Positions 1-5,646 of a stretch of DNA of 61,586 nucleotides are shown in pieces; the stretch's first letter is position 1; each line of letters begins with the position of its first letter. The position numbers were made by a program, and so were the translations under genes. The DNA is taken from contig JAGSHN010000024.1 of NCBI GenBank assembly GCA_029855935.1, positions 1-61,586 of the forward strand, in the 5' to 3' direction. The stretch is from Candidatus Thorarchaeota archaeon (GTDB taxonomy: Archaea > Asgardarchaeota > Thorarchaeia > Thorarchaeales > Thorarchaeaceae). The notes beneath the pieces were generated by a model. That model worked only from the letters and a program-made list of their open reading frames with translations, had not been told where the DNA came from and did no database searches.

Positions 1-682
1 CAAATATGTCGTGCGTGTCCTCTGTCACACGCCCCAGATCGTTGCTGTTTATTATCGGTGGGAGGCTCAGTGTCCGGCCTGCTGAGTCGACGAGGAGAGG
101 CCATCTCTTGTAGTCAGCTATGATATGCCCGTACTCAATCCCCTTCTCGTGTTTCTGCAATATCTCTGGACCACTCATCTCCGTCTCGGTGCCAAGAGGC
201 ACAAACCTGATCTTGTCCGGGCGCTCCGCTCGGTACACCACAGGGAACTTGATGTCCCTGTATACGTAGAGTCCAATGCTTGCCTTTCTCCTGTTCCTGC
301 CGTGTGTGGCCGTCAGAGACTCCTGAAGTCTCATATAGTCCTTGATTAGCGCGTCGGACATCTCGACGCCCTTGACCACGCCACAGGCGATGTACCTTCG
401 TATCTTCTCCAGTCCCCTCTGAACAATAATCTGCTTGCCGGACTTGCGCACAGGAAACACTGGCAGACCCGGCGCGATTCCGAGGAACGCCCTGACTGCT
501 CTCGCAATGCCCTCTTCCGAGAGCATATCCTGACGGTCGGGATTGATCTCGACCTCAATCAGGTCACCCTCCACTCTCTCGACCTCGGCCTTGAGAAGGA
601 AGAGCGTGTTCTCCAGCTCCTCAAGCGACATCTTTCGTCCTATGAGCCGTTCTAGGCCCTGAATGCTGCATTCGACAATCAT
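1..682 (-). CDS. pheT: Phenylalanyl-tRNA synthetase beta subunit (partial, 3' end outside window)
   Basis: This is the N-terminal 227 residues of the archaeal-type PheT, the large subunit of the (alpha-beta)2 enzyme that charges tRNA-Phe. Reading from the ATG at 682, the protein begins MIVECSIQGLERLIG and then carries the stretch EINPDRQDMLSEEGIARA, which is diagnostic of archaeal/eukaryal PheT. The rest, including the B3/B4 and catalytic-like domains, lies to the left of base 1. It starts 13 bases after the stop of pheS on the same strand, so the two subunits are co-transcribed, as is common in archaea. Confidence 0.95.
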   Translation of the reverse strand, partial: MIVECSIQGLERLIGRKMSLEELENTLFLLKAEVERVEGDLIEVEINPDRQDMLSEEGIARAVRAFLGIAPGLPVFPVRKSGKQIIVQRGLEKIRRYIACGVVKGVEMSDALIKDYMRLQESLTATHGRNRRKASIGLYVYRDIKFPVVYRAERPDKIRFVPLGTETEMSGPEILQKHEKGIEYGHIIADYKRWPLLVDSAGRTLSLPPIINSNDLGRVTEDTHDIF

Positions 683-3621: not shown

Positions 3622-4035
3622 TCATTCTCTCGGTGGCCGAGGAAGACTCACTGCCGTCTCGAGGTCGACGATCCAGCGGTCGAGCTCATGACTGATTGAT
3701 TGGACGTATTCGGCGAGACTCTCAAAGTACCTATGAAGATGCGATTGCGTCGATGACTTGTACTTCTCTCTGTAGTCCTTCACACGCTGGGGGAGCCCGA
3801 TTGTCCATCTGCTCAGTGTTGCAGTCAATGTCCGATCGTCGATGAGTCTCCGTGCGGTCCTGGAGCTTCTCGCAAGCTCGATCATCCTCTCAAGCTGGTC
3901 CTGCATTCGAATCAGGCCTGCCACGAGCTGCTTCGAGTCGCTCTTCGTGTCGGCATCGCGAGCAGTGTAATAGACGTGTTTGAGGTGGCGCTTGCAGTTG
4001 CCCACCTCTCTCAGAAAGCCTGTGATGGCCTGCAT
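3622..4035 (-). CDS. Hypothetical helical protein
   Basis: A 137-residue protein rich in charged helices (for example IRMQDQLERMIELARSSR). No signal peptide, membrane segment or known motif is visible, and I do not recognise the family. It is the third gene of a run that starts with the split Cas4-like pair at 4991, with 45 bases between it and the nuclease gene, so it may be co-transcribed. It converges with aRF1, the stops being 15 bases apart. Confidence 0.65.
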   Translation of the reverse strand: MQAITGFLREVGNCKRHLKHVYYTARDADTKSDSKQLVAGLIRMQDQLERMIELARSSRTARRLIDDRTLTATLSRWTIGLPQRVKDYREKYKSSTQSHLHRYFESLAEYVQSISHELDRWIVDLETAVSLPRPPRE

Positions 4036-4080: not shown

Positions 4081-4728
4081 TCATCTTGACACGGAGTGCG
4101 GACAGATGTCCGCAGAGAAGGGGCAACGTCCGCATCTGTCGCGACGCGAGGCGGGTCTTGCGTCTCTCTGGCCCCTCCAGTAGCCCTCCATCGCCTTGAG
4201 TTTCCGTTCTGTGAGAGCTCTGTCGTATCTTGCTGTACTGACCCTGGCCTTTCCGCAGGAGATGCAGTGCTGAAGGTCCCTGTTTCTACACCTCTCCGCA
4301 TTTGTCTGGGCACAGTACACCACGACGGCAAGTGCATTGTCACATTGCAGTCCCATCTCCTCAAGCGCGAGGGCGTAGAGCGAGGCCTGGAAGAGGTCCT
4401 CACTATGGGCTGTCCTGGGGACCTGCACGCGAGGGAACTTCATCTCAATGACAGCATCAAGAGTCAATGCAGCCCCCTTCGACACAACGATATGGTCGGC
4501 TCTTCCGACATAGCCCCACCTTCGCGACTCAACACTCAACTCGCTGAGCACGTATCGCCCTGCTAGTGTCTTCGGGTCAGCCAGACTTCTCAGCCCTCCT
4601 CTCAACGGCGTAGCGCCCGTGAGAAGTTTGCTCAGTCCGATGTATTCTCTGGCAATAGCAACAACGACGAGCAACAGGAACGTGATGAGCAGAAGGAGCG
4701 GGAACACACCGTCGGCTAGTGGCGTCAT
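4081..4728 (-). CDS. Cas4/Dna2-like PD-(D/E)XK nuclease, C-terminal catalytic part with N-terminal TM
   Basis: The protein (215 residues) opens with a membrane helix (about residues 9-27). It then shows the core of a Cas4-type nuclease: GRADH with D78, the E95-x-K97 pair in VIEMKF, Q114 in the following helix, and a C-terminal CxxC-x6-C cluster (C199, C202, C209) like the Fe-S ligands of Cas4/AddB. The fourth ligand and the GxxLH motif, normally in the N-terminal part of the same chain, are in the preceding ORF. Start ATG and the upstream stop overlap as ATGA, suggesting coupled translation. No cas genes are nearby, so a repair or DNA-end-processing role is more likely than CRISPR adaptation. 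Confidence 0.8.
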   Translation of the reverse strand: MTPLADGVFPLLLLITFLLLVVVAIAREYIGLSKLLTGATPLRGGLRSLADPKTLAGRYVLSELSVESRRWGYVGRADHIVVSKGAALTLDAVIEMKFPRVQVPRTAHSEDLFQASLYALALEEMGLQCDNALAVVVYCAQTNAERCRNRDLQHCISCGKARVSTARYDRALTERKLKAMEGYWRGQRDARPASRRDRCGRCPFSADICPHSVSR

Positions 4729-4991
4729 CCTGCAGGCCCCCAGAGGTATAACAGCACGAGCAGGATGAGCGTGACGAGAATTACGATGGCAATATTGCTC
4801 ATTGTGCCTCTGCGTCGTCTGTCCGCCGGGCGAATCTCTCTGTGGAGACGCGTCCCGACAAGGGCCTCCCTAGTGGCCTCCGTCCGGATGATCTTGTCGA
4901 GATACAGGAAGTACTCACAGAAGTATTGCTGTTTCAGCTCTGAGACCGTTCTGGTCCTGCCCGAATGGGCGTCAGCCGTCCTACGAGTCAT
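4725..4991 (-). CDS. Cas4-like nuclease, N-terminal part with C-terminal TM
   Basis: An 88-residue ORF that looks like the front of a Cas4-family nuclease: VSELKQQYFCEYFLYLDKI supplies the first Fe-S cysteine (C25) and ALVGTRLH the conserved GxxLH histidine (H50). It ends with a membrane helix (about 66-84) where Cas4 would continue into the PD-(D/E)XK core. The next ORF starts with a second TM and contains that core. The two TMs would form a hairpin if the chains were one. This is either a real split gene with coupled translation, a programmed frameshift or a sequencing error. Confidence 0.7.
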   Translation of the reverse strand: MTRRTADAHSGRTRTVSELKQQYFCEYFLYLDKIIRTEATREALVGTRLHREIRPADRRRRGTMSNIAIVILVTLILLVLLYLWGPAG

Positions 4992-5156: not shown

Positions 5157-5202
5157 AAGGGGCGAGATGTCGCCATGGAGTGTCCCGTTCCTGGAAAGGA
5201 AC

Positions 5203-5646
5203 ATGCTGGTGAAGATGATAATGACCGAGGAGAATGCATACGAGGGTGCAACAGCGGGTAGGTTGCTGGACTTCACGGACTCGAACACGATTGAGTTCCC
5301 TGAGTCCTTCAAGGCGGCTCTCGGGACCGACCGTGCACTGATGGTTCTCGTCTACAAGGACAAGCAGGTCCGCATCTTTCCTCTTGAGAGTGATGAGGTC
5401 TATTATCTCAGTATAGTCATAGGGAGACTCACGAACGATTTCCTGACACAGCTGTCAAGAACCTTCAAGGACTACGGTCTTGTCGATCTGTTGTATTCAA
5501 CGGGAGTCTGCCTCCGTGGCACCAAATGCTACTATGAGTGCTACTTCGCTCCACACCAGCTCACAGGTTCCTCCGACGATCTCGGTAGAGCGCTCAACTC
5601 CCTCGACGGAGTCGTGTCTGTGGTCATCGAACCCGTGAAGACATAG
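5203..5646 (+). CDS. Possible AbrB-like/ACT-like small regulator
   Basis: A 147-residue protein of uncertain function. The N-terminal part (TIEFPESFKAALG ... VYKDKQVRIFPL) resembles the swapped-hairpin AbrB/MazE pattern. The C-terminal part (ALNSLDGVVSVVIEPV) resembles the end of an ACT domain. Both are weak matches made by eye. I placed the start at the ATG at 5203 because GGAAAGGA lies three bases upstream and the TATA-like box is 50 bases before; upstream in-frame ATG 5167 lacks this. It is followed by the DedA-like gene on the same strand. Confidence 0.65.
   Translation: MLVKMIMTEENAYEGATAGRLLDFTDSNTIEFPESFKAALGTDRALMVLVYKDKQVRIFPLESDEVYYLSIVIGRLTNDFLTQLSRTFKDYGLVDLLYSTGVCLRGTKCYYECYFAPHQLTGSSDDLGRALNSLDGVVSVVIEPVKT

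Follow-up and report, generated by a model that had tools for sequence, protein, structure and literature searches.

The stretch of DNA analysed here (hereafter the window; 61,586 nucleotides, Candidatus Thorarchaeota archaeon, contig JAGSHN010000024.1) contains two short overlapping reading frames, ORF1 and ORF2, each of which resembles one part of a Cas4-like nuclease. The question raised by this locus is whether they are the pieces of one interrupted or recoded gene, or two proteins that assemble into one enzyme. We consider it probable, at about 80%, that the products of ORF1 and ORF2 are the two subunits of a single membrane-anchored PD-(D/E)XK nuclease of the Cas4/EXO5 type with a [4Fe-4S] cluster. 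The locus has the following features:

4725..4991, reverse strand: ORF1, N-terminal half of the nuclease, 88 aa, ATG start, with Cys25, GxxLH (His50) and a C-terminal transmembrane (TM) helix
4081..4728, reverse strand: ORF2, C-terminal half of the nuclease, 215 aa, ATG start, with an N-terminal TM helix and the PD-(D/E)XK core
4725..4728, reverse strand: ATGA, overlap of the ORF2 start with the ORF1 stop
4737..4793, reverse strand: TM helix 1, ORF1 residues 67-85, predicted N-in by the positive-inside rule
4651..4707, reverse strand: TM helix 2, ORF2 residues 8-26, predicted C-in by the positive-inside rule
4917..4919, reverse strand: Cys25 codon in ORF1, predicted first Fe-S ligand
4842..4856, reverse strand: GTRLH motif of ORF1 (G46-x-x-L-H50), containing His50
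4438..4497, reverse strand: catalytic core of ORF2, D78 ... E95-x-K97
4387..4389, reverse strand: Gln114 codon of ORF2, in the DxFQxxLY motif that includes Y118
4255..4314, reverse strand: extra four-cysteine motif of ORF2 (C139-x7-C147-x7-C155-x2-C158), invariant, possible second metal site
4102..4134, reverse strand: C199, C202 and C209 of ORF2, predicted remaining Fe-S ligands
3622..4035, reverse strand: ORF3, located downstream within this operon-like unit and encoding a conserved helical protein of 137 aa

The full set of Cas4/EXO5 motifs is present only over ORF1 and ORF2 combined. The earlier note on this DNA had placed the leading cysteine and GxxLH in an ORF1 that closes with a TM helix, and D78, E95-x-K97, Q114 and the three remaining cysteines in an ORF2 that opens with one, with the two frames overlapping as ATGA; each of these observations was reproduced here, as was the coincidence of the split with a membrane hairpin.

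Among 99 related genomes, relatives of ORF2 were detected in 37 of the 47 belonging to the window's own family and in none of the 52 outside it; when 227 genomes of the phylum were searched by profile, the matches outside the family were short and weak, with no clear ORF2 homologue among them. In 34 of these 37 genomes ORF2 is immediately preceded by an intact ORF1, the three exceptions being two transposon-like insertions in ORF1 and one internal stop or frameshift (G028). The earlier note had wavered between two subunits joined through paired TM helices and a frameshift; it had proposed a search of relatives for fused and split forms, and would have given up its reading had they all been fused and devoid of the TM hairpin. 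The pair is split in 34 separate assemblies, and no fused ORF1-ORF2 form was found among the ORF2-carrying family genomes. All three frame relations occur in the 34 pairs (+1 in 18, +2 in 14, and 0, with an intervening TGA, in 2), which favours two subunits.

The gene order is fixed, with the g159 gene, ORF1, ORF2 and ORF3 followed by an eRF1-type release factor gene on the opposite strand and by PheRS genes, and this constant place across the family points to vertical inheritance of the thorarchaeal pair. Carriage by viruses or plasmids was rejected, as the thorarchaeal version was not found in viral contigs, phages or plasmids. Several neighbouring elements were recorded in passing. The gene beside the pair at window positions 5167-5646 encodes a 159-aa protein conserved across the family and without a Pfam match. 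The transposon-like insertions within ORF1 in G030 and G017 (L131 6440-8611 and L132 1-387) carry a 723-aa TnpB/Cas12f-like protein. A giant protein of 1400-1800 aa is encoded beside the locus in three genomes (L131 891-6257, L129 3235-7500, L122 10622-15913); that of L131 has no Pfam or PADLOC match and contains, by eye, a PD-(D/E)XK-like stretch (GRADFVLF..MVIELKTKS..QVELYAQAIL).

Analysis of the junction revealed a recurrent signal. The ORF1 stop lies within GGTGA in at least 24 of the 34 pairs, compared with 16 of 536 other genes of the same loci, and ORF2 usually starts at an ATG 4 or 5 nt past that stop; the window pair has its ATGA overlap in place of this arrangement. The 3' tail of the 16S rRNA was taken from relatives (a search of the window's own genome for a 16S end found none) and reads GGATCACCTC, because of which GGTGA(T) can pair with it, so that the ORF1 stop likely doubles as the ribosome-binding site of ORF2.

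Both ORFs are under purifying selection, with dN/dS values of 0.07-0.21 for ORF1 and ORF2 in all pairs where these were computable. They are also lost together by deletion, as surveyed in those genomes of the family that yielded ORF3 (in G025 the locus is interrupted by a contig end). In G046 an internal deletion runs from about residue 19 of ORF1 into ORF2, of which the final 20 residues are left, and in G006 a truncation leaves about 51 ORF1 codons and the extreme end of ORF2, the flanking genes being kept in both; G013 and G023 have an empty site, from which the pair is cleanly absent, with the flanking genes, including ORF3, retained. The divergence of the ORF2 sequence (mean column identity of 45%, versus 60% for ORF3) and the repeated loss would be in keeping with a function that is dispensable, for example the handling of incoming DNA at the membrane. 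ORF3 belongs to the unit in nearly all genomes, yet it is kept where the nuclease is lost, and it was therefore rejected as an obligate partner and regarded as not specific to the nuclease. Its model is a confident helix bundle (pLDDT 94.5), with no Pfam family and no PDB match at E <= 0.001.

These data bear directly on two readings in which ORF1 and ORF2 would be parts of one gene. A sequencing or assembly indel, or ongoing decay, might have split a single frame: the window ORFs overlap by four bases only, one relative has a broken ORF1 (G028) and two loci have decayed (G046 and G006). Against it stand the recurrence of the split in 34 separate assemblies with three frame relations, the conserved ORF2 start with its Shine-Dalgarno-like signal and the purifying selection on both halves; frame relations, selection and junction signals together rule out error or decay as a general explanation, and the probability left to it is negligible. 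Alternatively, ribosomes could shift frame in a programmed way, or read through the stop, at the ORF1-ORF2 junction and so produce one chain, an idea to which the covalent hairpin, as a natural fold, and the good modelling of the fused chain lend some appeal. However, the 0, +1 and +2 relations would each demand a different recoding event, the junctions of most relatives possess a start codon and an SD-like GGTGA, and the bacterial pairs described below have either an ATGA overlap or GGTGA followed by 4 nt and ATG. Programmed frameshifting was rejected as a general explanation on the frame relations and junction signals, and such recoding is highly improbable.

Each half is homologous to a different part of single-chain nucleases. 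In a profile of single-chain Asgard EXO5/Cas4-like proteins, ORF1 aligns to columns 22-70 and ORF2 to columns 101-276, and hhalign comparison with these relatives is colinear, with E values of 8e-8 for ORF1, 3e-7 for ORF2 and 1e-12 for the joined sequence. ORF1 alone matched none of the profile models searched. ORF2 matched PDDEXK_1 just short of the cut-off (E 2.7e-4), the NCBIfam cas4 model (TIGR00372; E 6.8e-6, 26 bits against a curated cut-off of 65) and the PADLOC Cas4 model (3.9e-8), all PADLOC matches being weak Cas4 ones, while Exonuclease V (PF09810) reached 11.3 bits, below its gathering score of 25. A sequence search of the PDB gave EXO5 as the sole match at E <= 0.001 (E 1.9e-4); the alignment covers, in order, the ORF1 cysteine (VTDLATQNWCELQT vs vsdLriQflCeyrl), DxFQxxLY and the C-terminal cysteines, the first two segments being far too weak alone. 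The locus is not adjacent to cas1 or cas2 and lies between the eRF1-type release factor gene and the gene at 5167-5646; the same genome has a separate single-chain Cas4 within a cas locus on another contig (C29). The predicted nuclease also departs from a one-polypeptide enzyme, its coding sequence being divided in two, with all three frame relations represented in the family. The designation as Cas4-like in the earlier note thus holds for the motifs and the predicted fold, but the sequence falls between Cas4 and EXO5 and below the Cas4 cut-off.

The residues expected of such an enzyme are strictly conserved. C25, D78, E95, K97 and Q114 are invariant in all 35 aligned family loci, and G46, H50 and C199/C202/C209 in 34 of 34, one of the 35 sequences being cut there. 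The catalytic H50 ... D78 ... E95-x-K97 ... Q114/Y118 pattern of the Cas4/EXO5 superfamily is present, with all positions invariant, and in ORF1 invariance falls precisely on the positions of the Cas4/EXO5 pattern (LxxQxxC, GxxxH). One N-terminal cysteine (C25) and three C-terminal ones match the cysteine order of EXO5, in which C92 and three C-terminal cysteines are the cluster ligands (PMC12004521); Cas4 has the same cysteine pattern, and one tested member is a 5'-3' exonuclease (PMC3466216). ORF2 carries four further invariant cysteines (C139, C147, C155 and C158), overlooked in the earlier note, which were not seen in EXO5-like or plasmid Cas4 relatives and possibly form a second metal site.

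The fold was predicted with AF2 for the relative L045, in which both ORFs are in one frame, with the TGA read through and other relatives supplied as unpaired rows. The joined model (pLDDT 82, pTM 0.75) has a Cas4-like fold by Foldseek (E 2.8e-5), and its best PDB structural alignments include Cas4 7mi4 (VIA Z 12.8 over 154 residues, rmsd 4.2, model 8..300), Cas4 8d3l_J (VIA Z 10.3), EXO5 (VIA Z 10.2, 22% identity) and MGME1. In this model the two halves fit one Cas4-like fold; the linkage was imposed, so that contact between them in the cell is a prediction. Peak hydropathy averages 2.8 and 2.7 in the ORF1 and ORF2 families, as against 0.8-1.15 in single-chain Asgard relatives. Across the family, ORF1 ends a median of one residue past its TM helix, and ORF2 has a median of four residues ahead of its own. 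ORF2 has 0.09 positive charges before the helix and 3.1 in the 15 residues after it, while the charges of ORF1 before TM1 are nearly neutral (2.0 positive vs 1.8 negative). From the position of the helices and this charge distribution, with the ORF2 charges carrying the argument, both soluble parts are predicted to lie in the cytoplasm, as in a hairpin with a severed outer turn.

Two further readings accept that ORF1 and ORF2 are separate products and dispute what these do. ORF2 by itself might be a nuclease or an inactive DNA-binding protein, with ORF1 a membrane adaptor of the same ancestry; each ORF is indeed a complete membrane protein, and their contact comes from prediction. This is unlikely given that ORF1 preserves precisely the superfamily residues listed above and that the pair is lost as a unit. 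It is also conceivable, though very unlikely, that the two proteins assemble into a membrane-bound structural or regulatory Fe-S protein devoid of nuclease activity, as might be read from the extra Cys4 motif, suggestive of an altered function, and from an activity deduced by analogy; the invariance of H50, D78, E95, K97 and Q114 in all complete sequences speaks against it.

In the two-subunit reading preferred here, ORF1 would insert in the manner of a tail-anchored protein and ORF2 as a signal-anchor protein, in both cases with the soluble part facing the cytoplasm. The TM helices would pair as a hairpin whose outer turn is cut, and the soluble parts would join into one fold, with ORF1 contributing the His region of the active site and a single Fe-S cysteine, and ORF2 the D, ExK, Q and three cysteines. 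Because the ligands are divided between ORF1 and ORF2, binding of the cluster would need both subunits. Translational coupling would allow these to be made in step, since the signal at which ORF2 translation starts contains or overlaps the ORF1 stop. By analogy with Cas4 and EXO5, the assembled enzyme probably trims DNA ends, in this case near the cytoplasmic membrane. A role in clearing or processing incoming DNA is a tentative suggestion, and neither ORF3 nor the surrounding housekeeping genes give any hint of a function in defence.

The membrane-inserted arrangement recurs beyond this family. A TM search among Asgard Cas4 proteins recovered from another Asgard family a single-chain Cas4 of 338 aa (L193; G169:C229), in which several TM segments are inserted between the GxxLH and GRPD motifs. 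With L193 as query, a two-ORF membrane pair, more Cas4-like than that of the window, was located at positions 3972-4819 of L207 (G020:C112), in a thorarchaeon (G020) that also has a window-type pair. A tblastn search with the G020 pair identified similar pairs on plasmids of Bacillus subtilis, Paludisphaera and Singulisphaera, with the first ORF annotated as 'hypothetical protein' and the second as 'Dna2/Cas4' or 'PD-(D/E)XK nuclease'. In this second lineage the first ORFs (81-91 aa) contain C..GxxxH and a TM helix at the end, and the second ORFs (162-169 aa) have one at the start; the B. subtilis halves match positions 1-44 and 61-179 of the cas4 profile. The junction is GGTGA, 4 nt and ATG in Bacillus and an ATGA overlap in planctomycetes, both forms also occurring in Thorarchaeota. 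Profile comparison between the two split lineages is moderate (E 1e-5 and 8e-6), and they may have either a common origin or arisen by convergence, as this result fits both. The earlier note called a membrane-bound Cas4-type nuclease outside any CRISPR locus unusual; the window pair does lie outside a cas locus, but membrane insertion of Cas4 is not peculiar to it, being found elsewhere in single-chain and split forms.

While the kind of enzyme is known, its two-gene membrane form appears to be undescribed. No description of a split Cas4 or a transmembrane solo-Cas4 was found in the literature searched, which is weak evidence, most subscription journals lying outside it; the words 'transmembrane' and 'split' are absent from a Cas4 phylogenomics paper (PMC5704561). 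The Fe-S ligands and active-site residues are divided over two membrane proteins, an arrangement kept in a whole Asgard lineage and recurring in bacteria, and with such a pair one can ask directly if two subunits may be assembled into an enzyme with an Fe-S cluster as their joint. The B. subtilis pair makes this idea experimentally accessible. With the first ORF labelled as hypothetical, half of each such enzyme escapes current annotation. As a speculative extension, two-gene membrane Cas4 proteins might constitute an unrecognised class of archaeal and bacterial nucleases, in which cluster and active site would need two TM subunits to meet, and membrane and Fe-S supply would serve as a safety catch, confining the nuclease to the membrane face, where its targets would be membrane-bound or incoming DNA; a second metal site would then be an addition of the thorarchaeal branch.

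To our knowledge, Cas4 and EXO5 proteins have so far been described as soluble and made of one chain. The window pair resembles Cas4 (Pfam PF01930, TIGR00372, including solo-Cas4) in motif order, the four-cysteine Fe-S pattern and the fold of the joined model, but differs from it in consisting of two polypeptides, in the two TM helices between GxxxH and GxxD, in the extra Cys4 motif, in scores under the family cut-off and in its position outside a cas locus. With EXO5 (PF09810; human 7lw7-7lwa) it shares DxFQxxLY and C-x2-C-x5-C in the same order, although EXO5 is soluble, consists of one chain and lacks the extra Cys4 motif. The single-chain Asgard EXO5/Cas4-like nucleases (f24, ~312 aa; G099, 279 aa; G153) are colinear with both halves and, unlike the window pair, have neither a TM helix nor a break. 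L193 has TM segments at the same position of the fold, but it is unsplit and has several of them. Finally, the second-lineage pairs share with the window pair the split point and a matching topology, whereas they, like L193, are more Cas4-like and without the extra Cys4 motif, the bacterial ones being plasmid-borne.
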